Virus record (IMG/VR): IMGVR_UViG_3300029448_000001 | Location: 109,967-143,979 of that record | DNA from: a virus | Length of the DNA stretch: 34,013 nucleotides | Direction: 5' to 3' (one strand) | Shown here: positions 4,500 through 25,147 of the stretch, piece after piece | Layout of the letters: each line of letters starts with the position of its first letter | Position numbering within the stretch: position 1 is the first letter of the stretch | Notes under the pieces: generated by a model | Database searches by the model: none | Told to the model about the DNA's origin: nothing | What the model saw: only the letters and a program-made list of their open reading frames with translations | Position numbers and translations under genes: made by a program

Positions 4500-5441
4500 A
4501 TGAAATCTTTTGCAGATTTTTATATAAAAGATCCCGTAATTTTAGAAAAACAAATACTATTAAATAATAGTGCAAAATACAATCAAGTTGTATTTCTTGC
4601 AGGCGGGTCAGGTTCAGGAAAAGGATTTGCTAGAAAATATTTTTTAGAATCATCAAAATTTAAGATACATGATGTAGATGATTTGAAAAAAGCATTTATG
4701 GAATTAGATGCATTAGGTAAATTCACAACAAGCCAACTAATGAAAAAATATGCGGTTGACATCACAAGAAGCCAGAGAGAAATTTTAAACAAAGCACTAA
4801 TCAAACCTAATAGAACATTAAAAGATTTGGTATTGAAAAATCCAGATGATGTAAATGCATTGCATTTAGCAATAAAACTCACAAACTCAAAAAATAAAAT
4901 GTTAGATAATATGTTAGCAACTGCTAAAAAAGGAGTTTTGCCTAATTTGATGTTAGATACCACATTCAAAGATACTGAAGAAATGGAAAGAGTAATTCCT
5001 CAACTTATGGACATAGGTTATAAATCAAGTGACATACACTTAGTTTGGATTTTAACAGATTATAAAATAGCAATACTTAACAACGCTAAGAGAGCCAGAG
5101 TGGTTCCTCAAGATGTATTATTCAATACTCATAAGGGAGCGGCCAGGACTGTTCATAAATTATTAACCCAAGGATTACCAAGGGAAGTAGATGGAAGTGT
5201 TTATGTAATTCTTAACAATAAAGACAATACTGTATTTTATTTAAATCCTGATGGAAAACCATACAAAACAAAAAGTGGGCAGTTTGTCGTAAAGGATTTT
5301 AAATATATCAAAGTTAAAGATAGCGGTAAAAAGGTCAACCTAGAATTAGAAATAAAACAAAAACTTTTATCTTGGATAAAAGAGAACGTCCCAAAAGGCA
5401 CGTTAAATACTAGACAATTAGACAGAATCACAAATATGTAG
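4500..5441 (+). CDS. P-loop NTPase, zeta-toxin/kinase-like
   Basis: A 313-residue protein with a good RBS (AAGGAG at 4489-4494). Its N-terminal region has a Walker A loop GGSGSGKG (35-42) after a hydrophobic beta strand (VVFLA). An Asp pair in HDVDDLKKAF could bind metal or substrate. LPNLMLDTTF (about 150-160) and LVWILTDYKIA are further core strands of a nucleoside-kinase or zeta-toxin-like fold. The C-terminal 80 residues look like a separate beta-rich domain. It may phosphorylate a small molecule or RNA end; the substrate cannot be told. A weak TGTTG/CAACA inverted repeat follows the stop. Confidence 0.7.
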   Translation: MKSFADFYIKDPVILEKQILLNNSAKYNQVVFLAGGSGSGKGFARKYFLESSKFKIHDVDDLKKAFMELDALGKFTTSQLMKKYAVDITRSQREILNKALIKPNRTLKDLVLKNPDDVNALHLAIKLTNSKNKMLDNMLATAKKGVLPNLMLDTTFKDTEEMERVIPQLMDIGYKSSDIHLVWILTDYKIAILNNAKRARVVPQDVLFNTHKGAARTVHKLLTQGLPREVDGSVYVILNNKDNTVFYLNPDGKPYKTKSGQFVVKDFKYIKVKDSGKKVNLELEIKQKLLSWIKENVPKGTLNTRQLDRITNM

Positions 5442-5892: not shown

Positions 5893-6498
5893 ATGCCATA
5901 CGTCAAAGAAACATTTCAAGTATCTACATTAGAAACTGCAAAACATGTAGCATTAACCACTGATACAGATAATCCTAATAAATTTTATGAGGAAACAGAT
6001 TACTTTGTCTCAACCTTACTTAACAATTTTTCAAATTCAAAATGTAGAAAATGGTTAGACTATGGTTGTGGTATGGGTAGAGTTTCTTTAGAGATAATAA
6101 AAAAATACGGAGACCCTGTTGTTGGATATGATACTAGTCAAAGTATGTTATACTGGGCAAATCAGTATATAAAAAGTCAATTTTTTATTCCGTCACTACA
6201 ATTGCCTAAAAATAAATTTGATGTTATTATATGTGCATTCTGTTTGCAACATGTAGAAGATGTAAAACTAGAAGTTGAGAATATTTTTTCATTGCTAGAT
6301 TCTTCTGGTTCTTTTGTTTTATTAAATGAGCAAACAAGATATGTTCCTAATGGATTGACAGATGACAATTTTGTTATTTGGGAAAATGATAAAATAGATG
6401 TTTTTGAAGAAGTTGAAAAAAAATTTGTTTTATACAAAAGTGTTCCATATGTTGAAAAAAGTAATTTAAACATTAACTTTTATAATAGGAGAGATTGA
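5893..6498 (+). CDS. Class I SAM-dependent methyltransferase
   Basis: A 201-residue Rossmann-fold methyltransferase. Motif I is LDYGCGMGR (55-63). The acidic end of strand 2 is VVGYDTSQSML, and the motif IV/post region is FDVIICAFCLQHVED, followed by SGSFVLLNEQTRYV. The N-terminal 45 residues form an alpha-helical cap. The pattern matches the Methyltransf_11/25 group, which acts on small molecules, sugars or peptides. It stands apart from the sugar cassette, among small membrane proteins, so its substrate is unclear. Confidence 0.8.
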   Translation: MPYVKETFQVSTLETAKHVALTTDTDNPNKFYEETDYFVSTLLNNFSNSKCRKWLDYGCGMGRVSLEIIKKYGDPVVGYDTSQSMLYWANQYIKSQFFIPSLQLPKNKFDVIICAFCLQHVEDVKLEVENIFSLLDSSGSFVLLNEQTRYVPNGLTDDNFVIWENDKIDVFEEVEKKFVLYKSVPYVEKSNLNINFYNRRD

Positions 6499-10156: not shown

Positions 10157-10738
10157 ATGGCAGACGAAACAGGTAAATGTGTATTGAGAAGAATGCATGA
10201 CCACAGATTTGCAACAAGATATTTTGTTGGAGATGGTATAGATATTGGTTCAGGTGAAGATTCCCTAGACAAGTACAAAGAGTTTTTTCCTATGATAAAA
10301 ACAATAAAATCATGGGATTTAGATGATGGCGACGGCCAATTTATGGACGGCGTGAAAGATGAAACATATGACTTTGTTCACTCTAGTCATTGTTTAGAAC
10401 ATTTAAATGATTGTAAAATAGGACTACAGAATTGGATAAGAATTGTAAAAAAGGGTGGGCATTTAGTTTTTGCAATTCCTGATGAAGATTTATATGAGCA
10501 AGGTGTTTTTCCGAGTACGTTCAACGGAGACCACAAATGTACATTTACAATATTAAAAGAAAAGTCTTGGTGTGATAAATCAGTAAATGTTTTTGACTTG
10601 CTTTCAGCACAAAAAAATATTAAAATATGTAAGATAGAGTTATTAGATGCAACATTCAGATATGGTCGTGAGAGATTTGATCAAACATATCATTCTTTTG
10701 GCGACTGTGCAATTGAAATAATTTTACAAAAGGTTTAA
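10157..10738 (+). CDS. SAM-dependent methyltransferase of the glycan cassette
   Basis: A 193-residue class I methyltransferase with GGAG at 10147-10150. Motif I is IDIGSGEDSL, a somewhat degenerate glycine loop. SWDLDDGDGQFM gives the acidic strand-2 end, YDFVHSSHCLEHLND the motif IV region, and VKKGGHLVFAIPDEDLYEQG the following strand and loop. This matches Methyltransf_11-like enzymes that accompany glycosyltransferases in O-antigen and sugar clusters. It is the first gene of the cassette after the tmRNA. It may methylate a sugar or sugar precursor; the substrate is inferred from context only. Confidence 0.8.
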   Translation: MADETGKCVLRRMHDHRFATRYFVGDGIDIGSGEDSLDKYKEFFPMIKTIKSWDLDDGDGQFMDGVKDETYDFVHSSHCLEHLNDCKIGLQNWIRIVKKGGHLVFAIPDEDLYEQGVFPSTFNGDHKCTFTILKEKSWCDKSVNVFDLLSAQKNIKICKIELLDATFRYGRERFDQTYHSFGDCAIEIILQKV

Positions 10739-10739
10739 T

Positions 10740-11402
10740 ATGAAAATTGGTATCGCTAATTCTTATGACTATAGTTATTGTGAATTAGGTAATCACACAT
10801 GGACAGATAATAAAAGAGTATATGCACAAAGACATGGCTATGAGCCACTTTGTAAGATATATGCTAATGATGATATTCCTCATGGGTTTAAAAAACTATT
10901 TTATATCTTAGAAATATTTACTACGCATTCAGACATTGAGTGGGTATGGTTTACAGGTTGTGATTCAATGATAACAAATATGACAATCAAACTTGAAGAT
11001 ATTATTAAAGAACATGCTGATGAAAATACACACTTGATTATATCTAAAGATTATAGAGATATAAATGCCGATAGTTTTTTAATAAAAAATTCAGAAGCAG
11101 GTATAAACTATATTAATTTTATTTGCGACCAACTCGACAAATACAAAAATGATAATTGGGTAGAACAACAAGCAATGATTGACCACGCTACTCAATATTC
11201 CCCTATTATGAGATATGTTCCTCAAAGAACATTTAATTCTTATAATTATGATTTATATCCTGATTGCCCTCCTCCTCACGTTGATAAATTAGGGCATGAT
11301 GGAAATTGGAAGCATGGTGATTTTCTAATTCATTGGCCGGGGTTAAGTTTGCAAAATAGAATATCACTTTACCATCAATACAAAAACTTTATGGTGGAAT
11401 AA
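10740..11402 (+). CDS. GT34-like glycosyltransferase
   Basis: A 220-residue protein similar in layout to the galactosyltransferase GMA12/MNN10 (GT34) group. It starts MKIGIANSYDYSY, then NHTWTDNKRVYAQRHGYEPL, then HGFKKLFYILEIF. WVWFTGCDSMITN (68-80) is the DxD-like metal and sugar-nucleotide site, here reading GCDS instead of DSD. NADSFLIKNSEAG and WVEQQAMID follow in the right order, and HWPGLS near the end carries the late His. It probably transfers a hexose to a glycan. It is shorter than eukaryotic members, which have a membrane anchor. Confidence 0.75.
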   Translation: MKIGIANSYDYSYCELGNHTWTDNKRVYAQRHGYEPLCKIYANDDIPHGFKKLFYILEIFTTHSDIEWVWFTGCDSMITNMTIKLEDIIKEHADENTHLIISKDYRDINADSFLIKNSEAGINYINFICDQLDKYKNDNWVEQQAMIDHATQYSPIMRYVPQRTFNSYNYDLYPDCPPPHVDKLGHDGNWKHGDFLIHWPGLSLQNRISLYHQYKNFMVE

Positions 11403-11468
11403 ATGAAAATTTATCTTTATATATTTTTGATGTCCATAGCACTTGTATTTTTAGTAGCCCTTTGGTAA
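11403..11468 (+). CDS. 21-residue membrane micropeptide in the glycan cassette
   Basis: A frame of 22 codons starts directly after the stop of the previous gene (TAA then ATG) and ends one base before the next ATG. It encodes MKIYLYIFLMSIALVFLV then ALW, a single hydrophobic helix. It occupies the whole gap with no wasted bases, which suggests a real coupled gene, but hydrophobic frames are common in AT-rich DNA. It might anchor or regulate a glycosyltransferase. Confidence 0.45.
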   Translation: MKIYLYIFLMSIALVFLVALW

Positions 11469-11469
11469 A

Positions 11470-12261
11470 ATGAAAAATTTTTCTCATTTTGGAACATTTG
11501 GTGATACAATTTATAGTCTTTGTGTAGTCAAACTTTTAGGTGGCGGTAACATGTACATAAAGTTGGACTACTTAAATTATTTTTGTAGAGAAGTTTTACG
11601 CTGGACTGATGCAGGCCCTGGAGCAGGAAGATATACACAAAAAGATTATGATATGTTAGCACCTTTATTAAAAGCACAAGATTATCTTCATGACGTTGAT
11701 GTTTATAAAGACCAGTCTATTGACGTTGATTTTGAAAATCATTATAGATTTCATTTGATGGGAGATAGATGGAGAGGTAATCAAACAGAATGTTATGCTC
11801 TTACTCAAAACTTAAATATACATGATGAAAAAATCAGCAATGCTTTGATTAGACTTCCATGGTTAAACAATATTGATCCTATCTATCAGCCTGAAAAAAT
11901 TTGTATAAACAGAACCTCTAGGCATCATCATGGAGAAACAGGAGATTCTAAAAAAGTTTATGAGAAGTTTATATCTGATGATTGTTTTTTTGTAGGAACA
12001 GAACAAGAACATACAGATTTCTGTGATGAATTTAAATGTGATGTAAGATATCAAAGAACAAATGATTTATTAGAATTAGCGAGATACATAGAGGGTTGTG
12101 AAATGTTTTTAGGTAATCAAAGTTCTGCTCTAGCAATAGCTATAGGTCTTGGTAAAGATTTAAGATATGAGATAAGAAAAGATTATCAGTCAGAGTATAT
12201 GACAAGTCCACATGGACATGGCGATGTTTGGTTCCCAAGAGATAATATAGGATATTTTTAA
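11470..12261 (+). CDS. GT-B glycosyltransferase-like (heptosyltransferase-type) protein A
   Basis: A 263-residue protein. HFGTFGD (6-12), then IYSLCVVKLLGGGN, is the N-terminal nucleotide-binding style loop seen in ADP-heptose/GT9-like proteins. The C-terminal half has FFVGTEQEHTDFCDEF and LLELARYIEGCEMFLGNQS, the usual donor-site region of GT-B enzymes. The product of 17128-17844 shares both blocks, so the two are paralogues at the two ends of the sugar genes. It likely transfers a sugar to a glycan acceptor. The exact family is inferred from motif pattern only. Confidence 0.65.
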   Translation: MKNFSHFGTFGDTIYSLCVVKLLGGGNMYIKLDYLNYFCREVLRWTDAGPGAGRYTQKDYDMLAPLLKAQDYLHDVDVYKDQSIDVDFENHYRFHLMGDRWRGNQTECYALTQNLNIHDEKISNALIRLPWLNNIDPIYQPEKICINRTSRHHHGETGDSKKVYEKFISDDCFFVGTEQEHTDFCDEFKCDVRYQRTNDLLELARYIEGCEMFLGNQSSALAIAIGLGKDLRYEIRKDYQSEYMTSPHGHGDVWFPRDNIGYF

Positions 12262-13565
12262 TGGATTCAAATTTATTAGATATAGTAAGAAAAAATATAT
12301 TAAAGAAAAATCATGAATGGAAAGCTGGTGAAGATTTAGTTCACTACGCAGGACCATACTTTTTTGAAGATGAGTACATGGCGGCAATTGAATCTTTGTT
12401 AGATGGTTGGCTCGTTATGGGTAAAGCGTGTATAAGATTTGAAAACAAATTCCCAAAACAAATGGGAAGAAAGCACGGTGTTTTAACAAACTCTGGGTCA
12501 AGTTCAAACTTACTAATGATGTCAGCGTTAACATCAAAACGATACACGAACTTTCCAAAAGGCACAAAAGTTCTTATGCCGATTGCAGGTTTTCCGACAA
12601 CACTTAATCCTACAATTCAAGTAGGATTTGAGCCTGTGTTTTTAGATATAGAATTAGATACGTTGAATTTAGATTTGACAAAAGCTGAAGACTTAATTAA
12701 AGAACATGATATCAAAGTCATTACATTTGCTCATGTACTAGGCAATCCTCCGAATATGGACGATGTGATGGCATTAGTAAAGAAATACGACTTAGTTTTG
12801 TTAGAAGATTGTTGTGATGCCTTAGGGTCAACTTATGATGGTAAACCATTAGGAAGTTTTGGCTCTATGGCATCATGTTCATTTTATCCTGCTCATCATA
12901 TGACTATGGGTGAAGGTGGATTTGTAACGTGCGAATCTGAACAATTAGAAATTGTTGTTAGGTCATTTAGAGAATGGGGAAGAGGGTGTTATTGTGTAGG
13001 ACCAAAAGCTAACGTGCTAAAAAATGGAACATGTAAAAAAAGATTTTCAGAATGGATTCCTACAATGACAGGCGAAGTATTTGACCATAAGTATGTTTAT
13101 GATGAAATAGGTTACAATTTAAAACCTATTGATTTGCAGGGTGCAATTGGTCTAGTGCAATTGGAAAGGCTCGGTAAAATTCACGAACTCAGACGAAGAA
13201 ATTATCGGCTTCTTTTCTCAATATACGAAAAGTATGAACAATTTTTCCATTTGCCTAGACCAAGAGCCTTATCAAATCCATCATGGTTTGCTTTCCCTAT
13301 AACGATTCGTGAAGATGCTCCATTTACTAGAACTGATTTAGTAAATTACTTTGAAGACCATAAAATTCAAACAAGACCTTATTTTGCAGGTAATATAATG
13401 CTACAACCTGCATATTCGCATTTAATGAATCCTGAAGATGCTAAAAACAATTTTCCTGTAGCAACGTACACCATGACACATACATACTTTCATGGTACAA
13501 GTCCTGTAATTACACCAGAGCAAATAGAATATATAGGATATGTTTTACAAAAGTTTATGACTTGA
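12261..13565 (+). CDS. RfbH/DdhC-like NDP-4-keto-6-deoxyhexose 3-dehydrase
   Basis: A 434-residue DegT/DnrJ/EryC1-fold protein, the usual RfbH length. Two features separate it from ordinary aminotransferases. The PLP-binding Lys is replaced by His in YPAHHMTMGEGG (His212-213), as in PMP-dependent C3-dehydrases. It also carries the iron-sulfur cysteines GRGCYCVG (243, 245) and Cys258 in NGTCKKRF. Asp183 in LEDCCDALG binds the cofactor pyridine. Known members (E1/DdhC) remove the 3-OH of CDP-4-keto-6-deoxyglucose with help from reductase E3 (DdhD), which is not seen here. It leads directly into the ThDP enzyme gene. Confidence 0.85.
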   Translation: MDSNLLDIVRKNILKKNHEWKAGEDLVHYAGPYFFEDEYMAAIESLLDGWLVMGKACIRFENKFPKQMGRKHGVLTNSGSSSNLLMMSALTSKRYTNFPKGTKVLMPIAGFPTTLNPTIQVGFEPVFLDIELDTLNLDLTKAEDLIKEHDIKVITFAHVLGNPPNMDDVMALVKKYDLVLLEDCCDALGSTYDGKPLGSFGSMASCSFYPAHHMTMGEGGFVTCESEQLEIVVRSFREWGRGCYCVGPKANVLKNGTCKKRFSEWIPTMTGEVFDHKYVYDEIGYNLKPIDLQGAIGLVQLERLGKIHELRRRNYRLLFSIYEKYEQFFHLPRPRALSNPSWFAFPITIREDAPFTRTDLVNYFEDHKIQTRPYFAGNIMLQPAYSHLMNPEDAKNNFPVATYTMTHTYFHGTSPVITPEQIEYIGYVLQKFMT

Positions 13566-13587
13566 TTATTAATAGAAAGGCGGCGAT

Positions 13588-15351
13588 ATGAAAGGTAAAG
13601 AATACATAGCTAAATTTTTAAAAGCTATTAACATAGATAATGTTTTTTTAGTGCAAGGCGGTGCATGTTCTTTTATGGTAGATGCAATTGCAAAAGAAAA
13701 TATAAATTATACATGCTTTCAACATGAACAAGGAGCGGCCATGGCCGCTGATGCTGTTTGGAGAACTACTGATAGAAAAAAAATAGGAGCAACTTTTTGT
13801 ACAAGTGGCCCAGGAGCATCTAATTTAGTAACTGGTATTGCTTGTGGATATTTTGATAGCATACCTAGTTTTCATATTTGTGGGCAAGTCAACGGGAAAG
13901 AAGTAGGGCAGTACAATGGAGCAAAGGTAAGACAAGCTGGCTTTCAACAAATGGATATAGTTAGTATGACTAAAGCGATTACTAATTATGCTGTAGCTGT
14001 TACGAATGGAGAAGAATTAAGACAAGAATTAAAGACATGTTATGAAAAAGCATTTGAGGGTAGAGGCGGTCCTGTTTTAATTGACATTCCTATGGACGTA
14101 CAGACTGATGAAATGGAGAACAGCGAACTTTTATTACCAGAAGTAAGAATGGTAGTATCTTCATCAACTAAAATTGAAGAAATACGAAATAACATATCTG
14201 AATTTTTTAAAGATTCTGAAAGACCTTTAGTAGTTTATGGAGCAGGCGTAGAACTGTCAGGTGTTTCAGAACAACTTAATGAATGGCTAATTGATAATTG
14301 TGTGCCTTTTGTTTCAAGTTGGTCAGCACTTAATTCATTTGAACATTCACTACCTAATTATTATGGACACTTTGGTGTGTATGGCAATCGAGGTGCAAAT
14401 TATATTATTCAAAATGCGAGTAATATTTTGGTCTTAGGGTCAAGACTTGACAACAGGCAACGCTCTGGTAATCCTAAACTATTTGCACCTCACTCTAAGG
14501 TCATGGTTGTTGATATTGATGGAGAAGAATTAGTGAAGTATGATTCGGAATGGAAAAAAGAAATTTTAGATTTAGTCCATCTTCCTAAAGTATTAGAAAA
14601 TTATAAGTTGCCTGAGTATTCTCCAGAGTGGGTAGATTATTTGAAAAATATAAAAGAAGAGTTTTATAATGTCGATATCTCTACTGAACCTAAAAAATAT
14701 AAAAGTTTAAATCCTTATGAAGTTGTGCAGAAGATGAATGAAATTATAGATGATGATGCTATGCTATTTGCTGATGCTGGTGCTAATCATGTATGGGTTT
14801 ATCAAATGTTTAACAGAAGAAAAAATCAACTTCTTACAACATCATCAGGCCATTATGCTATGGGCTACAGTTTGCCTGCATCTATAGGAGCAAAATTAAA
14901 TAATCCTGATAGGCAAGTGATTAGTTTTAATGGTGATGGCGGAATCCAAATGAATATTCAAGAATTACAAACAATGCTTGAGTATGACTTAGGAATTACT
15001 GTTGTTGTATTTAACAATCATGGTTTAGGTATGATAAGACAATTTCAGAATACTTACATGGGGGGCAGACATCATGCTACAGGAAATGGTCAAGGTCCAG
15101 GCAGACCTAATCTTTCGGGTATAGCTACTGCGTATTCTATGGATTATTTAAGAGTTACATCAATTGACCAAGTTAATGAAAATATGTTTAAGCGTGAAAA
15201 TAAAAGATTACTAATCGAATTTGTCATTGATGAAAAAGTTTTAATAGAACCTAAGTTAGAGGGTGGCAGACCAATCAATGACCAGTTTCCGTATGTGAGT
15301 GATGAAGAGTATGCTGAAAATAATAAGTTTGTAAATTATTCTAGAGGTTGA
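13588..15351 (+). CDS. ThDP-dependent acetolactate-synthase/YerE-like enzyme
   Basis: A 587-residue three-domain ThDP enzyme. The N-terminal Pyr domain has QGGACSFMVDAI and the catalytic Glu47 in FQHEQGAAMAAD. The middle domain follows VLIDIPMDVQ. The C-terminal PP domain has NGDGGIQMNIQELQ, with the GDGG...N cofactor and Mg site at 449-456. It matches the acetohydroxyacid synthase family. Next to an RfbH-like dehydrase the closest functional model is YerE, which adds a two-carbon unit from pyruvate to a 3,6-dideoxy-4-keto sugar to build the branched sugar yersiniose. That role is inference from adjacency; a plain acetolactate synthase would be odd in this setting. Confidence 0.85.
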   Translation: MKGKEYIAKFLKAINIDNVFLVQGGACSFMVDAIAKENINYTCFQHEQGAAMAADAVWRTTDRKKIGATFCTSGPGASNLVTGIACGYFDSIPSFHICGQVNGKEVGQYNGAKVRQAGFQQMDIVSMTKAITNYAVAVTNGEELRQELKTCYEKAFEGRGGPVLIDIPMDVQTDEMENSELLLPEVRMVVSSSTKIEEIRNNISEFFKDSERPLVVYGAGVELSGVSEQLNEWLIDNCVPFVSSWSALNSFEHSLPNYYGHFGVYGNRGANYIIQNASNILVLGSRLDNRQRSGNPKLFAPHSKVMVVDIDGEELVKYDSEWKKEILDLVHLPKVLENYKLPEYSPEWVDYLKNIKEEFYNVDISTEPKKYKSLNPYEVVQKMNEIIDDDAMLFADAGANHVWVYQMFNRRKNQLLTTSSGHYAMGYSLPASIGAKLNNPDRQVISFNGDGGIQMNIQELQTMLEYDLGITVVVFNNHGLGMIRQFQNTYMGGRHHATGNGQGPGRPNLSGIATAYSMDYLRVTSIDQVNENMFKRENKRLLIEFVIDEKVLIEPKLEGGRPINDQFPYVSDEEYAENNKFVNYSRG

Positions 15352-15353
15352 TT

Positions 15354-16190
15354 ATGAAAAAAATGTTATTGACAGGTTCTACAGGTTTTGTTGGGAAATT
15401 TTTAAAGAAGAAGATAAAATCTAAACTAGACAAAGAGTATGAATTGTTTTGTCCTAACAGAGATGAATTAGATTTGACATCAACAATGGCTGTAACTTAC
15501 TATGCAATAGAAAAAGGCCCTTTTGATGTAATTATGCATTGTGCATCGGCAGGACGAGAAACTCCTAATATTATCGACAATAACATTTTTAAAGATAATT
15601 TATTAATGTTTTATAACTTAAAAAGAATAGCAACTCCAGAAAAAGGTTATTGTAAGTTTTTTAATTTTGGTAGTGGTGCAGAATTCAGCGTAAGCAGTAC
15701 TGTAGAAAAAGCTGATGATGTTTGGCGTTGGCACCCGCTAGAAAGTTACGGTGCAAGTAAAAATGTAATTTCAAGAGCCGCCGCGTATGGAACTTATGAT
15801 TATGTGTTAAGGCTTTTTTCTACCATAGATAAATCTGAATCTGAAAAAAGACTTCTCAAACAATTTATAGCATCAGTAAAAAATGAAAAAGTTTTTGAGA
15901 TACCTGCTGATAGATATTGCGATTTTTTTAGTTTAAGAGACTTATGGAAAGTAATAAAAGTTTATTTGAAATATCAGATTGTTTGTCAACACCAAACTAA
16001 TTGTGTATATGAAGATAAATTTAGAGTGTCCGATGTTATAAAAATGTTTTGTGAAATTCACAATATTCCTCATACATCATACAAAGTAACTGGCTGTCAC
16101 TTAAATCATTATACAGGAAAATATAACTTACATAAAATGGGAGTTAGATGTGAAGGTTTAGAACCATCTTTAAAGGAATATAAGATTTGA
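15354..16190 (+). CDS. NDP-sugar SDR (reductase/epimerase-like)
   Basis: A 278-residue extended SDR. ATG 15354 is preferred to TTG 15348 because AGAGG (15343-15347) is upstream. TGSTGFVG (7-14) is the NAD(P) loop, DVIMHCASAG the strand-4 region, GSGAEF the Ser region, and Tyr132-x3-Lys136 (ESYGASKN) the catalytic pair. The second half is divergent. In yersiniose or abequose pathways an SDR of this type (YerF, RfbJ) reduces the 4-keto group or side chain, which would fit here. It overlaps the next gene by 4 bases. Confidence 0.75.
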   Translation: MKKMLLTGSTGFVGKFLKKKIKSKLDKEYELFCPNRDELDLTSTMAVTYYAIEKGPFDVIMHCASAGRETPNIIDNNIFKDNLLMFYNLKRIATPEKGYCKFFNFGSGAEFSVSSTVEKADDVWRWHPLESYGASKNVISRAAAYGTYDYVLRLFSTIDKSESEKRLLKQFIASVKNEKVFEIPADRYCDFFSLRDLWKVIKVYLKYQIVCQHQTNCVYEDKFRVSDVIKMFCEIHNIPHTSYKVTGCHLNHYTGKYNLHKMGVRCEGLEPSLKEYKI

Positions 16191-17134
16191 AGAAAGTAGT
16201 TTATGTTACAGGTTGTTTAGGTTTTATTGGGCACCATCTTACTAGAATTTTATTAAGCAATGGATTTTATGTAATAGGTGTAGATAAAATGACCTATGCA
16301 TCTAATGACGATTTTTTAGTTAATCTACAAAGATTAGGAGCAGAACGATTTAAATTTATTAAAAGTGATATTAATGATTTAGATAAACTTTATGATTGCG
16401 ACTATGTTATAAACACAGCCGCCGAAACTCATGTAGATAATAGTATTGTTTCTTCAGAAGTATTTTTAAAATCTAATGTAAATGGTGTTCATCACTTATT
16501 AGAATTGATTAAACAAAAGAATTTATTTAAAATTCCTACACTTCTACATTTTTCAACTGACGAGGTGTATGGTGATATTGAAAAGGGAAATCACTTTGAG
16601 ACTGATTTGCTAAAGCCTAGTAATCCTTACTCAGCATCAAAAGCCGCCGCGGATATGCTGATACTTGCTTGGGCAAGAACCTTCAATATCCCATACATTA
16701 TCGTCAGGCCCACTAATAATTATGGCACAGGTCAGTATGCAGAAAAACTTATTCCAAAAACATGCAAACATCTTTCACTTGATAAGAAGGTAGATGTTCA
16801 TGATAAAGGATTGCCTAAAAGAACTTGGTTACATGTGGAAGATACTTGTAGTGCAATTCTACAAATTATTACGTCTAGAGCAAAAAATCAAATTTATAAT
16901 ATAAATGGAAATCATGAATGTGCAAATCTTGAAGTAATTCGCAAAATTATAACTTGGACCACTGGCGATACAAACATAGAAAAATACTTAGAACATTTTA
17001 CAAGGTCAGGGGGTGACGTAAGATATTCTTTAGATGATTCAAAGTTGAGAAATCTAGGTTGGAAACCTACGGCAGATTTTGATATTGAATTAAAAAAAAT
17101 TATAGACTATCATAAGGACAATTTTATATGGTAA
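16187..17134 (+). CDS. NDP-glucose 4,6-dehydratase-like (RmlB-type) SDR
   Basis: A 315-residue protein starting at TTG 16187, with AAGGA at 16173-16177; no better ATG exists. TGCLGFIGHHL is the NAD loop, VDKMTYASN the RmlB-type adenosine contact, INTAAETHVDNSI the next block, HFSTDEVYGD the Thr-Asp-Glu catalytic set (124-126), and YSASKAAAD the Tyr148/Lys152 pair. NNYGTGQYAEKLIP and RTWLHVEDTC complete the family pattern. It should make an NDP-4-keto-6-deoxyhexose, the substrate the RfbH-like enzyme needs. Whether the nucleotide is dTDP or CDP cannot be told. It overlaps the last glycosyltransferase by 7 bases. Confidence 0.88.
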   Translation: MKKVVYVTGCLGFIGHHLTRILLSNGFYVIGVDKMTYASNDDFLVNLQRLGAERFKFIKSDINDLDKLYDCDYVINTAAETHVDNSIVSSEVFLKSNVNGVHHLLELIKQKNLFKIPTLLHFSTDEVYGDIEKGNHFETDLLKPSNPYSASKAAADMLILAWARTFNIPYIIVRPTNNYGTGQYAEKLIPKTCKHLSLDKKVDVHDKGLPKRTWLHVEDTCSAILQIITSRAKNQIYNINGNHECANLEVIRKIITWTTGDTNIEKYLEHFTRSGGDVRYSLDDSKLRNLGWKPTADFDIELKKIIDYHKDNFIW

Positions 17135-17844
17135 AAACATTTATGCATTCGGGTAAAATGGGTGATATCATTTGGGCTTTGCCTTTTATAAAATATCAAG
17201 GTGGAGGTAAATTATATTTACATCTCAATCAAAAAGACCCAAACAATAATGAAAATAAATTAGGTGAAGATTCAGCGAATAAATTAATAGCATTATTGAA
17301 TACTCAAGATTACGTTGAAGCAGAAGTTTCTTGGACTGGAAAAGAAGAAGTAGATTTTAATTTAGATAAATTTCGTGATGTAATTTATTCTTGTGGCAAA
17401 TCAATTGCAGAAAGTTATTTTGTGGCATTTAATGTAAAAGATGATTACTCAAAATTTTTGAGTCAACCTTGGCTAAAGATTCCTAATCATGAATACCATG
17501 GTAAAGTCATTGTGAGTAGAACTAGAAGATATTTGCCTACTCCTAGAAATCCTTTTTATAATCATTTGGTCAAAAGTGGATTAGATAGTAATGGTGTTTT
17601 TCTGGGCCTCAAAGAAGAACATGAGGTTTTTTGTAGCATGTATGAAAGTAATGTTGATTGGTCAAATACATATACGATACTTGATTTAGCTAAAATCATA
17701 GCAGGAGCATCATTATTTGCAGGAAATGAAAATCTTGTAAACGCTATAAATGAGGGGCTAAAGAAAACTGCCTTCTTAGAGTCGCAAAAAAATGAAGAAA
17801 AGAACAATTGTTTCTTTTTGAGACCTAATTTATTCATTATTTAA
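17128..17844 (+). CDS. GT-B glycosyltransferase-like protein B
   Basis: A 238-residue protein beginning MVKTFMHSGKMGDIIWALP. HSGKMGD (7-13), the following IKYQGGGKLYLHL, and the C-terminal ILDLAKIIAGASLFAGNEN match the product of 11470-12261 block for block. GVFLGLKEEHEVFCSMY is the other shared part. It is the last gene of the cassette and ends before a promoter region. A transfer reaction using the cassette's sugar is likely but not shown by any single residue. Confidence 0.65.
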   Translation: MVKTFMHSGKMGDIIWALPFIKYQGGGKLYLHLNQKDPNNNENKLGEDSANKLIALLNTQDYVEAEVSWTGKEEVDFNLDKFRDVIYSCGKSIAESYFVAFNVKDDYSKFLSQPWLKIPNHEYHGKVIVSRTRRYLPTPRNPFYNHLVKSGLDSNGVFLGLKEEHEVFCSMYESNVDWSNTYTILDLAKIIAGASLFAGNENLVNAINEGLKKTAFLESQKNEEKNNCFFLRPNLFII

Positions 17845-21440: not shown

Positions 21441-22337
21441 ATGGCTAATTCATTTGCCGACTTGAAAAAGTCAAGAAATGCCGATAGGCAAAAACTTACA
21501 AGCAAACTCAATGCAGTTGCAAATCCCGAAAAGAAAAGTTACATAGACGAGAGGTTCTGGAAACCAGAGGTTGATAAAGCAGGTAATGGTCTTGCAGTTA
21601 TTAGATTTTTACCAGCATCAGAAGGTGAAGACATGCCTTGGGTTCAAGTCTTTTCTCATTCTTTTCAAGGCCCAGGTGGCTGGTATATTGAGAATTCTCT
21701 TACAACACTAAATCAAAAAGACCCTGTAGGTGAATATAATTCAGTACTATGGAACTCTGGTGTTGAAGCAAATAAAGAGATTGCTCGTAAGCAAAAAAGA
21801 AAGCTAACATACATTTCTAACATTCTAGTAGTGAAAGACCCAAGTAATCCTGAGAATGAAGGAAAAGTGTTTCTTTATAAGTACGGAAAGAAAATCTTTG
21901 ATAAATTAAATGACATGATGAATCCTGAGTTTGAGGACGAGGCATCTGTCAATCCATTTGATTTATGGGAAGGTGCAAACTTCAAACTTAAAATTCGTAA
22001 TGTTGAAGGTTACAGAAATTATGATAAATCTGAGTTTGATGCACAAGCACCTTTGTTTAAAGATGACGAGAAACTAGAGAAGACTTGGAAAAGTCAATTT
22101 GGTTTAACTGAATTTGTATCTTCTGGGAACTTTAAGACTTATGATGTACTCAAAGCAAGACTTGATAAAGTTTTAGGAATGCAAGATACAAGCGAAGAAG
22201 TTGTGGCATCATCACCGCAACCTGTAGCACCTGCTAGTGCAACACCTCCTGTTTCTGAATCTGTAGAAGATAAACTCGCAGATGATGATGATGAGGGAAT
22301 GAGTTACTTTGAAAAACTAGCATCTGATGATAAGTAG
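21441..22337 (+). CDS. 32: gp32-like single-stranded DNA-binding protein
   Basis: A 298-residue protein (T4 gp32 is 301), with RBS ACGAGG at 21424-21429. The core is diagnostic: FSHSFQGPGGWYIENSLTTL, YISNILVVKDPSNPENEGKV, then FLYKYGKKIFDKL and LWEGANFKLKIRNVEGYRNY. The basic N-terminus (ANSFADLKKSRNADRQKL) is the self-association region and the acidic tail (LADDDDEGMSYFEKLASDDK) recruits partners. The T4 zinc-binding cysteines are missing; the protein has no Cys. Residues 256-274 are a Pro/Ala/Ser linker. The 105-base leader 21336-21440 is AT-rich and may hold a promoter, but I see no clear box. A terminator follows. Confidence 0.95.
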   Translation: MANSFADLKKSRNADRQKLTSKLNAVANPEKKSYIDERFWKPEVDKAGNGLAVIRFLPASEGEDMPWVQVFSHSFQGPGGWYIENSLTTLNQKDPVGEYNSVLWNSGVEANKEIARKQKRKLTYISNILVVKDPSNPENEGKVFLYKYGKKIFDKLNDMMNPEFEDEASVNPFDLWEGANFKLKIRNVEGYRNYDKSEFDAQAPLFKDDEKLEKTWKSQFGLTEFVSSGNFKTYDVLKARLDKVLGMQDTSEEVVASSPQPVAPASATPPVSESVEDKLADDDDEGMSYFEKLASDDK

Positions 22338-22359: not shown

Positions 22360-22388
22360 ATGGGGTGCCGAAAGGTGCCCCATTTTTT
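22360..22388 (+). terminator. Rho-independent terminator after gp32
   Basis: ATGGGGTGCC (22360-22369), GAAA loop, GGTGCCCCAT (22374-22383) form a 10-bp stem with two G-U pairs, followed by a T run (22383-22388). The preceding TTTTCTCCTTGTTGTGTTG recurs in shortened form before the terminator at 27688. Confidence 0.9.
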
Positions 22389-22403: not shown

Positions 22404-23207
22404 ATGATTGATAAATTACTTGAGAAGTCCATAGATGAAAGTTCAAATGATAATGAAGTTGCAGTTTTATTATCTGGAGGTGTAGATAGCATTTCAGTTG
22501 CCTTTGCCGCACACAGACTTGGAAAAAAAGTTTCAGGTTATACATTTCATATTGAAGACAATCCTTCATATGACTCTAAAAAAGCAATTGAGATATGTAA
22601 TATTATGAATTGGAAATGTGTTGATACAGAAGTTCCTATTGACAATTTGAGAGGTGATTTCTTTACCCTTCTTAAAGAAATTAAGTGTGTAAAAAAAACT
22701 CATTTTGAGTGTTGTTTTCCGTTTCTTTATGTTTACCCTAACGTAAAAGAGCGTGAAGTGTTAGCAGGTCTTGGTGCTGATGGTTATTATGGAGTAAGCA
22801 AAAAAGCCTGTATACATTTTAAAACACCAAAAGAAAAATTTGACGAATATCGTGATGAACATTACTTACCTGAGAATCTTGGTGGAAAGATATGGCATAC
22901 AAGATTAGCAGAAAAGTTCGGTAAGAAATACCTTACACCATATGTTCATAGCGATATTCGTGATTTCTTTTATCAGTTTGATTGGTTTCAAATCAATCAG
23001 CCATTTCAAAAACATCATGTAGTCAATTCATTTCCTGAATTTAAAAAAATAGGTAAATTTAAAAAGCACATTAATTTACAACTCTGTGCTGGAATTGATA
23101 AAGCGTTTGAAAACTTACTAAACGATTCTGAGGTTAATTTTCGTAAAAGAAATAGAATTATGGATATTTGTAGAGATTGGCAAACAAGTCGTTTGACATT
23201 TGAATAA
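22404..23207 (+). CDS. PP-loop ATP pyrophosphatase, asparagine-synthase-C-like ligase
   Basis: A 267-residue protein. ATG 22404 has AAGGAT at 22392-22397. VAVLLSGGVDSISVAFAA contains the PP-loop SGGVDS (24-29). VLAGLGADGYYG (119-130) matches the LSGxGADExFGG block of asparagine synthetase. FHIEDNPSYDSKKAIEICN is the AMP-binding region. The glutamine amidotransferase half of AsnB is absent, so nitrogen must come from ammonia, another amine or another protein. Such enzymes activate a carboxylate as acyl-AMP. It lies upstream of the cytosine methyltransferase and CmoA-like genes, so the carboxylate could be carboxymethylcytosine in DNA. That substrate is inference. Confidence 0.75.
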   Translation: MIDKLLEKSIDESSNDNEVAVLLSGGVDSISVAFAAHRLGKKVSGYTFHIEDNPSYDSKKAIEICNIMNWKCVDTEVPIDNLRGDFFTLLKEIKCVKKTHFECCFPFLYVYPNVKEREVLAGLGADGYYGVSKKACIHFKTPKEKFDEYRDEHYLPENLGGKIWHTRLAEKFGKKYLTPYVHSDIRDFFYQFDWFQINQPFQKHHVVNSFPEFKKIGKFKKHINLQLCAGIDKAFENLLNDSEVNFRKRNRIMDICRDWQTSRLTFE

Positions 23208-23221
23208 TAAAGGTGCATAAT
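23193..23221 (+). promoter_or_regulatory. Possible promoter for the methyltransferase gene
   Basis: TTGACA (23193-23198), 17-bp spacer, CATAAT (23216-23221). The expected start point is about 23228, the base before the ATG, so this transcript would be leaderless. No well-spaced RBS precedes the gene (AAAGG at 23209-23213 is 15 bases away). It overlaps the end of the ligase gene. Confidence 0.45.
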
Positions 23222-23228
23222 AGATATT

Positions 23229-24470
23229 ATGACAAAATACAACCATTATACAGTTAAAGATGTAAAAAAATCCTCTGCTAGAGAATTGTTTACTGTTGTA
23301 AGCACTTTTGCAGGTGGTGGCGGTAGTTCTACAGGTTATCGTCTTGCAGGCGGTAAAGTTATCGCTATCAATGAGTTTGTTCAAGAAGCAATAAACACTT
23401 ATTCTCAAAACTTTCCCGATACAAAAATTATTCCTGGTGATATTAAAAAATTATCTGGTAAAGATTTTTTGAGTATTGCAGATTTATCTAAAGGTGAATT
23501 AGATATACTTGATGGTTCACCTCCATGTTCAGCATTTTCACTTGCAGGTAAAAGAGAAAAGAATTGGAAAGGTGCTACTAAACATGTTACAGAAAGTTAT
23601 TTTGATTTTGAAACAGGTGAAGTAGTTTCTAATTCTGAAACTGTGGTAAAAGATGGTGTTAAAAGTTATTCAGACGACCAAGTAGTAGAAGCGATTGAAG
23701 ATTTATTTCTTGAATATATTCGCATAGCAAAAGAGATACAGCCTAAAATTATCATTGCTGAAAATGTAAAAGGTATTACGATAGGTGAAGCAAGAAAAAA
23801 ACTAATCGAATTTCAGAATGAGTTTGAGAAAATAGAGCCTGGGTATGTGGTTACTCATCACGTTTTAAATGCCGCCAACTATGGCGTACCACAAGCTAGA
23901 GAGAGATTGTTTTTTGTTTGCATTCGACAAGATGTTGCTGATACGGTTGGAATTAATTTTCTCAATGCGGCATCAATGACATTACCAGAAACAATAACCT
24001 CAAAACACATTGGTATAAAAGATGCAATAGAAAATGTGCAGAATAATTTAAAAGAAGAAGAAGAGTTACTTGAGTTTGTTCAAGGGTCTTTTCAAAAAAA
24101 GTTTATTGAACTTCTACCATTTAACCCAGACAAACATTTAAAACCATCAGACAAAAGATTTCGTGATAAGAATCCAAAAGGCTCTTGTTTCAATATGATT
24201 AGACCTGCACCACATTTACCTTCTCCCACACTTACACAAGCAGGTCAACAAAAAGGTGTGAGTGGTGTATTTCATTATGAGAAGGATAGAAAGTTGACAA
24301 TCGAAGAATTAAAAATTTTAATGAGCATACCAGATGATTATATTCTTACAGGCACATTTGATCAGAAAGCAGAAAGACTTGGTCGTATGGTAGCACCGAA
24401 GATGATGGCCGCACTTGCAACAAATGTATATGAAAAAATATTGAAACCATATAAGGAATCTGTGAAATGA
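23229..24470 (+). CDS. Cytosine-C5 DNA methyltransferase family, motif X Asn replaced by Arg (possible DNA carboxymethyltransferase)
   Basis: A 413-residue Dcm-type enzyme. Motif I is STFAGGGGSSTGYRLAGG, motif IV GSPPCSAFS with catalytic Cys100, motif VI AENVKGI (Glu178, Asn179), motif VIII QARERLFFV, motif IX near PSPTLT. A target-recognition region lies at about 240-325. Motif X reads RLGRMVAPKMMAAL, where the usual form is Q-x-GN-A/S-V-P/A-P, so the conserved Asn is Arg386. That Asn is close to the SAM methyl. As I recall, changing it to Lys in M.MpeI let the enzyme use carboxy-SAM and make 5-carboxymethylcytosine. The next gene, overlapping by 4 bases, is CmoA-like. Confidence 0.92.
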   Translation: MTKYNHYTVKDVKKSSARELFTVVSTFAGGGGSSTGYRLAGGKVIAINEFVQEAINTYSQNFPDTKIIPGDIKKLSGKDFLSIADLSKGELDILDGSPPCSAFSLAGKREKNWKGATKHVTESYFDFETGEVVSNSETVVKDGVKSYSDDQVVEAIEDLFLEYIRIAKEIQPKIIIAENVKGITIGEARKKLIEFQNEFEKIEPGYVVTHHVLNAANYGVPQARERLFFVCIRQDVADTVGINFLNAASMTLPETITSKHIGIKDAIENVQNNLKEEEELLEFVQGSFQKKFIELLPFNPDKHLKPSDKRFRDKNPKGSCFNMIRPAPHLPSPTLTQAGQQKGVSGVFHYEKDRKLTIEELKILMSIPDDYILTGTFDQKAERLGRMVAPKMMAALATNVYEKILKPYKESVK

Positions 24471-25147
24471 CAAAATTTACTTTTGCTCAAAGAGAAGAAG
24501 GTTTTGATAATCACATTGAACATTCAATTCGTGGTTATACAAATCTTTGGAATGATATTTTAAAATATTCTGAATACTTTGTGGAAGACCATTCTTCAGT
24601 TATTGATGTAGGTTGCAGTACAGGTAAATTATTAAAAGCCATGATTAAACAGAATAAGTTTGCCCCAAAGGCAAATTACTTTGGTATAGAAATAGAAGAA
24701 GATTTTTATAAAGACTATGATAAAGATGAGAGTGAAAATTCTAATCTTAAATATTTTAAAGGTGATGCTCTTGACTTTGATTTTAAAGAAGCATCACTGG
24801 TTACATCTATATTCACACTTCAGTTTATTCCAGAACATTTGCGTAGAGAGATAGTAACAAAAATTTATAAAGGTCTAAGAACAGGCGGTGCGTTTATATT
24901 CGCAGAAAAGACAGTATCGGCTGACCCTAGAATACAAGAAATAAGAACCTTTACATACTATGATTACAAGCGAGAGCATTTTACCGCAGACGATATTCTA
25001 GATAAAGAGCGACAATTAAGACATATGATGAAATTAAAAACTCGTAGTGAACTCATCAGTTTATGTGCTGTTTCTGGGTTTGGAATGGAAAATATTGATA
25101 CTTTCTGGCAAAATCATGGGTTTACAGGGTTTATTGCTATAAAATAG
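24467..25147 (+). CDS. CmoA-like carboxy-S-adenosylmethionine synthase
   Basis: A 226-residue protein (E. coli CmoA is 247). The family pattern is clear along its length: FDNHIEHSIRGYTNLWNDI, motif I VIDVGCSTG (45-53) with the GCS of CmoA, ASLVTSIFTLQFIPEHLRRE, KIYKGLRTGGAFIFAEKTVS, then TYYDYKREHFTADDILDKER. CmoA combines SAM with prephenate to make carboxy-SAM. In bacteria that cofactor serves CmoB in tRNA wobble modification, but no cmoB is seen here. An Arg near 182 may correspond to the carboxylate-binding Arg199 of E. coli, shifted by one residue in my manual alignment. It overlaps the DNA methyltransferase gene by 4 bases. Confidence 0.85.
   Translation: MTKFTFAQREEGFDNHIEHSIRGYTNLWNDILKYSEYFVEDHSSVIDVGCSTGKLLKAMIKQNKFAPKANYFGIEIEEDFYKDYDKDESENSNLKYFKGDALDFDFKEASLVTSIFTLQFIPEHLRREIVTKIYKGLRTGGAFIFAEKTVSADPRIQEIRTFTYYDYKREHFTADDILDKERQLRHMMKLKTRSELISLCAVSGFGMENIDTFWQNHGFTGFIAIK

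Follow-up and report, generated by a model that had tools for sequence, protein, structure and literature searches.

A CmoA-CmoX-CmoY cassette, probably for cytosine hypermodification, in a T4-like aquatic phage

The three adjacent genes at 22404-25147 of the window (the whole stretch of 34,013 nucleotides analysed here) are a further member of the CmoA-CmoX-CmoY system, this time in a T4-like aquatic phage. We estimate at about 90% the probability that the cassette carries out phage DNA hypermodification of this type, with glycine as the probable amine and a DNA resistant to host restriction as the outcome. The pathway had been derived from the sequence alone in the initial annotation, which had no means of telling if it had been described before. 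It had: it was published for Synechococcus phage S-B43 (accession MN018232; Yang et al., Nat Commun, 7 December 2025; PMC12783734), and the derivation matches the published biochemistry.

In S-B43, CmoA makes carboxy-SAM (Cx-SAM) with a kcat of 2.33 per s. CmoX, a homologue of C5-methyltransferases, produces 5-carboxymethylcytosine at GC motifs, and Cx-SAM is the only donor accepted by the wild-type enzyme. Its structure (8YF3) places Arg350 on the carboxymethyl group, at the position of Asn304 in M.HhaI. CmoY, a homologue of asparagine synthetase, ligates glycine to 5-carboxymethylcytosine with ATP, and 5-glycylcarboxymethylcytosine is present in native S-B43 DNA (PMC12783734). Thousands of homologues from viral databases are reported in the same paper (PMC12783734), so a member in the record of the window is to be expected.

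The window forms the final 34 kb of a virus record of 144 kb. Its T4-like genes encode the gp32 single-strand binding protein, a helicase loader, a late-promoter regulator, PhoH and a baseplate hub. The gp32 gene (21441-22337), immediately before the ligase gene, encodes a protein ~57% identical to gp32 of Pelagibacter phage HTVC008M and of marine cyanophages. The cassette follows as three intact open reading frames, all on the + strand. cmoY (22404-23207) encodes a predicted stand-alone AsnB-type (PP-loop) ATP-dependent amide ligase of 267 aa without glutaminase domain, assigned from S-B43 CmoY homology, PF00733 and the predicted fold. cmoX (23229-24470) encodes a predicted DNA cytosine-C5 carboxymethyltransferase of 413 aa, assigned from S-B43 CmoX homology, its diagnostic residues and its best PDB match. 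cmoA (24467-25147) encodes a predicted phage-type carboxy-SAM synthase of 226 aa, assigned from S-B43 CmoA homology and a TIGR00740 match; its start overlaps the stop of cmoX by 4 bases (ATGA, 24467-24470). For cmoY a GTG at 22365 could serve as a longer start, but the conserved N-terminus MI- starts at the ATG in 22404. The coordinates, the order and the 4-base overlap given by the initial annotation are all exact by the open reading frames, and the families it recognised (AsnB-like ligase, cytosine-C5 methyltransferase, CmoA-like protein) are confirmed by PF00733, PF00145 and TIGR00740 as well as by S-B43 homology.

All three proteins resemble those of S-B43, also a phage of the T4-like (Kyanoviridae) type, over nearly their full length with 46-51% identity, a similarity that chance could by no means produce. 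CmoX shares with its S-B43 counterpart the diagnostic Arg, the SPPC motif and the cofactor residues, and the ligase lacks a glutaminase domain in both phages. The systems differ in gene order, Y-X-A in the window versus A-Y-X in S-B43, and in CmoX, which in the window belongs to a sister clade, has a divergent target-recognition region and a loop after SPPC longer by about 20-25 residues. A ParB-like partner gene is reported for many contigs (PMC12783734); none was found in the 144 kb record.

The window methyltransferase matches DNA_methylase (PF00145) with an E of 1e-51, and its NCBIfam name is also cytosine-C5 methylase. It is 45.9% identical to S-B43 CmoX (E 9e-90, tblastn; 51.5% over aligned columns) and its best PDB match is 8yf3 (E 1.4e-103). 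R386, in the motif GRMV, aligns to the carboxylate-binding R350 of S-B43 CmoX. The SPPC motif is formed by S97-P98-P99-C100, the nucleophile C100 being C98 of S-B43, and the residues that contact the adenosine of Cx-SAM (F25, E47, F48 and D69 in S-B43) are all conserved, as F27, E49, F50 and D71. In the alignment to S-B43 the motifs ENV and RxR are also present; these and the catalytic Cys are shared with M.HhaI and ordinary cytosine-C5 methyltransferases. The window CmoX differs from M.HhaI by the replacement of Asn304 with Arg386 and is 27% identical to it. Of the reference rows in the alignments, that of E. coli CmoA is consistent with the 4gek alignment, and in that of M.HhaI the positions of Cys81 and Asn304 are those given in PMC12783734.

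Among 114 CmoX-family rows from viral loci with Arg at the R350 position, 107 have CmoA in the same locus; the seven without CmoA in the examined stretch lie mostly near contig ends. This Arg is also found in the jumbo phages AD1, SNUABM_21 and PaBG, all of them with CmoA and CmoY. The C5 methyltransferases of six phages without their own CmoA display L (Melnitz), M, N, N and N at this position, and Arg in one case, Moraxella phage Mcat8. Thus the residue largely tracks CmoA across distant lineages. The Mcat8 enzyme (locus L176, 387-1457) is CmoX-like, with SPPC and the diagnostic Arg, and no CmoA of its own was found for this phage. Its host may supply Cx-SAM: Moraxella is a gammaproteobacterium and might contribute a CmoA of its own.

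An exception to this association is seen in two staphylococcal phages, vB-SscS-F1 and SPbeta-like (L005, 3263-5781; L182, 5974-7673), where CmoA lies close to, and in one cluster with, a C5 methyltransferase that has Gly at position 350 and GSPC for SPPC. These enzymes may bind Cx-SAM in another manner, and both loci would escape the published search filter.

CmoA of the window is 48.5% identical to S-B43 CmoA over 99% (E 4e-59, tblastn). It matches TIGR00740 with an E of 4.6e-27 and 95.2 bits, under the curated cut-off of 193.3; because the validated S-B43 CmoA (115.6 bits) likewise misses this cut-off, we class the window protein as phage type and not as the bacterial equivalog. No relative of this phage type was found in bacterial genomes with the patterns used. 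The window protein belongs to the fold family of E. coli CmoA (PDB 4gek, 4iwn), an enzyme of the tRNA cmo5U pathway, and keeps its Tyr39, Asp62, Gly64, Ser66 and Glu164. It differs by its low identity (~28%), by having no CmoB partner in the record and by a Glu in place of Arg199, the residue which in E. coli salt-bridges the Cx-SAM carboxylate (PMC3663124). Arg199 aligns to Glu181 of the window CmoA, with R182 adjoining; of 92 phage CmoA, 90 have Glu at this place, the validated S-B43 enzyme among them. Two residues that hardly vary among the phage CmoA, Arg22 and Arg185, are, from the alignment, candidates to replace Arg199 in its role. We also considered the small methyltransferase at 5893-6498 as a second CmoA and rejected it, its best NCBIfam matches being of the BioC/UbiE type, with CmoA not among them.

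The initial annotation had proposed a search for the same triad in other phage genomes. We gathered 80 viral loci using the window CmoX as query: CmoA is found in 74 of these CmoX-related loci and the full triad in 63. The gene orders are YXA (39 loci), XYA (14), YXXA (6) and XAY (4), and nine loci carry XA without CmoY. Synechococcus phage S-CRM01 (HQ615693) resembles the window in its adjacent CmoA and CmoX and in the Arg at the diagnostic position, and differs in that neither CmoY nor any other PF00733 protein was found in its whole record. The same search gave no match to CmoY or any Asn_synthase protein in the 144 kb record of L070 and the 131 kb record of L071, both with CmoX and CmoA; control records were positive. 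Phages of this kind may stop at carboxymethylcytosine or use another enzyme.

Two further genes were noted. In L070 (7992-10450) a 180-residue gene of unknown function is flanked by CmoX and CmoA, and in Dickeya phage AD1 (L004, 2938-3993) a DUF1611-domain gene, possibly a further partner, lies between CmoA and CmoY. Many CmoY loci show no CmoX or CmoA in the stretch of DNA retrieved, and a solo CmoY acting with a different carboxylate donor was therefore considered. This idea was rejected: among nine larger records, three have CmoX-CmoA at another place, one of these being the largest (157 kb). The other six are fragments of 29-70 kb, and we claim no new system.

Two readings of the cassette would deny it the carboxymethylation of DNA. 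The methyltransferase could be an ordinary 5-methylcytosine methylase, with CmoA and the ligase serving something else, as its Pfam and NCBIfam names would allow; the Mcat8 relative, with the diagnostic Arg and without its own CmoA, points the same way. We consider this very improbable, because Arg replaces Asn at the M.HhaI N304 position, the wild-type S-B43 CmoX that carries this Arg takes only Cx-SAM (PMC12783734), and the three genes stay together in loci of several gene orders. As to Mcat8, its host could supply CmoA. CmoA could also serve the wobble-uridine (cmo5U) modification of host tRNA, as in E. coli; its homology and the label of PHROG 4752, tRNA methyltransferase, are in favour of this role. 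Against it, cmoA overlaps the gene of the DNA enzyme by 4 bases, no tRNA genes were found within the window, and a search of the 144 kb record with TIGR00452 detected no CmoB, control genomes being positive, with the reservation that the record may be incomplete and that the host may have its own CmoB. The initial annotation had likewise seen no cmoB, and this holds across the record. The tRNA role appears to us slightly less probable still than the ordinary methylase.

A third alternative keeps the same pathway and changes only its last product, the amide being formed with another amino acid, another amine or free ammonia. The window ligase matches Asn_synthase (PF00733, E 1.6e-8) and carries the PP-loop motif SGGVDS, of which S24, G26, D28 and S29 are invariant in 34 aligned sequences. 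An AlphaFold2 model built on the alignment of these 34 viral sequences, which leaves out rows from annotated database records, has a mean pLDDT of 91.4. Structural comparison relates it to beta-lactam synthetase (1mc1, E 9.8e-11) and to asparagine synthetase B of E. coli (1ct9, E 1e-8). With these two enzymes CmoY shares the synthetase-domain fold and the PP-loop; it differs from them by the lack of an N-terminal glutaminase-type domain and by its identity of 14-18%. The missing domain argues against free ammonia drawn from glutamine. In the published ligase network some clusters have different active-site residues and one has a glutaminase domain (PMC12783734), and the window CmoY is unlike S-B43 CmoY (SpCmoY) at about half of its residues, so that an amine other than glycine deserves consideration. 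The match to SpCmoY nevertheless covers 98% of the length with 48.5% identity (E 7e-78, tblastn), far inside the network threshold of roughly 30% identity and E 1e-56, and within the SpCmoY cluster the residues binding the carboxylate of an alpha-amino acid are retained (PMC12783734). We therefore regard the amine as probably glycine on the strength of this homology, and a different amine as unlikely.

The preferred reading is thus the complete CmoA-CmoX-CmoY pathway, for which we infer every chemical step in the window phage from homology with the S-B43 enzymes. CmoA would convert SAM and prephenate to carboxy-SAM. CmoX would flip the target cytosine out, Cys100 would attack C6 and the carboxymethyl group of carboxy-SAM would be transferred to C5, Arg386 holding the carboxylate of the donor. 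With ATP, CmoY would then adenylate the carboxylate of 5-carboxymethylcytosine and couple it to an amine; as in S-B43, this is probably the amino group of glycine. DNA modified in this way would withstand the restriction enzymes of the host. The initial annotation had proposed the same sequence, carboxy-SAM made by CmoA, carboxymethylation of cytosine at C5 and an ATP-dependent amide formed by the ligase; it is supported by the biochemistry of the homologous S-B43 enzymes (PMC12783734) and by the diagnostic Arg of the window CmoX. This lends independent support to the idea that carboxymethylcytosine occurs widely, as a natural DNA base, among aquatic T4-like phages.

Against the preferred reading stand the Glu at the Arg199 position of CmoA, which the validated S-B43 enzyme shares, the divergent target-recognition region of CmoX and the strong avoidance of GCGC in the window (1 seen vs ~24 expected). 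GCGC contains the GpC motif of S-B43 CmoX, so that modification at GpC should protect it; its scarcity looks like a case of restriction-site avoidance. The dinucleotide bias of GpC itself was tried as a sign of modification and set aside as uninformative (odds of 1.08 in the window, no depletion).

The motif recognised in the window phage may differ from that of S-B43, since the target-recognition region (approximately residues 255-340 of the window CmoX) is only 35% identical between the two enzymes, compared with 60% in the core. In the tree the two CmoX fall in two clades separated by a fork with support 100/98, the placement of long-branched rows being uncertain. Two loci, L080 and L086, carry a window-type and an S-B43-type CmoX in tandem, with 61-62% identity in the core and 28-32% in the target-recognition region. 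Tandem pairs are also found in L045, L046, L105, L109, L111, L117 and L053, and the diagnostic Arg is present in the full-length copies of all these pairs. The presence of two intact copies side by side suggests, from sequence, that they have different targets; GpC should therefore not be assumed for the window phage. We give rather less than even odds to the tentative proposal that the window CmoX stands for a second subfamily of carboxymethyltransferases, whose target motif is not the GpC of S-B43. If true, a single CmoA would serve the carboxymethylation of two different cytosine contexts in the phages of L080 and L086. Enzymes whose sequence specificity probably differs would be of use for installing carboxyl handles in DNA.

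Other features of the window were observed in passing. GATC is nearly absent (7 seen vs ~100 expected in 1-34013), which looks like restriction-site avoidance. A sugar cassette at 10157-17841 encodes a glycosyltransferase, two nucleotide-sugar epimerases, a TPP enzyme resembling acetolactate synthase and a dehydrase of the RfbH type that scores above its NCBIfam cut-off; as a gene set it resembles that of branched-chain (yersiniose-type) sugar synthesis. Finally, the gene at 4500-5441 encodes a 313-residue protein that matches the Zeta_toxin kinase family (PF06414, E 2e-11).
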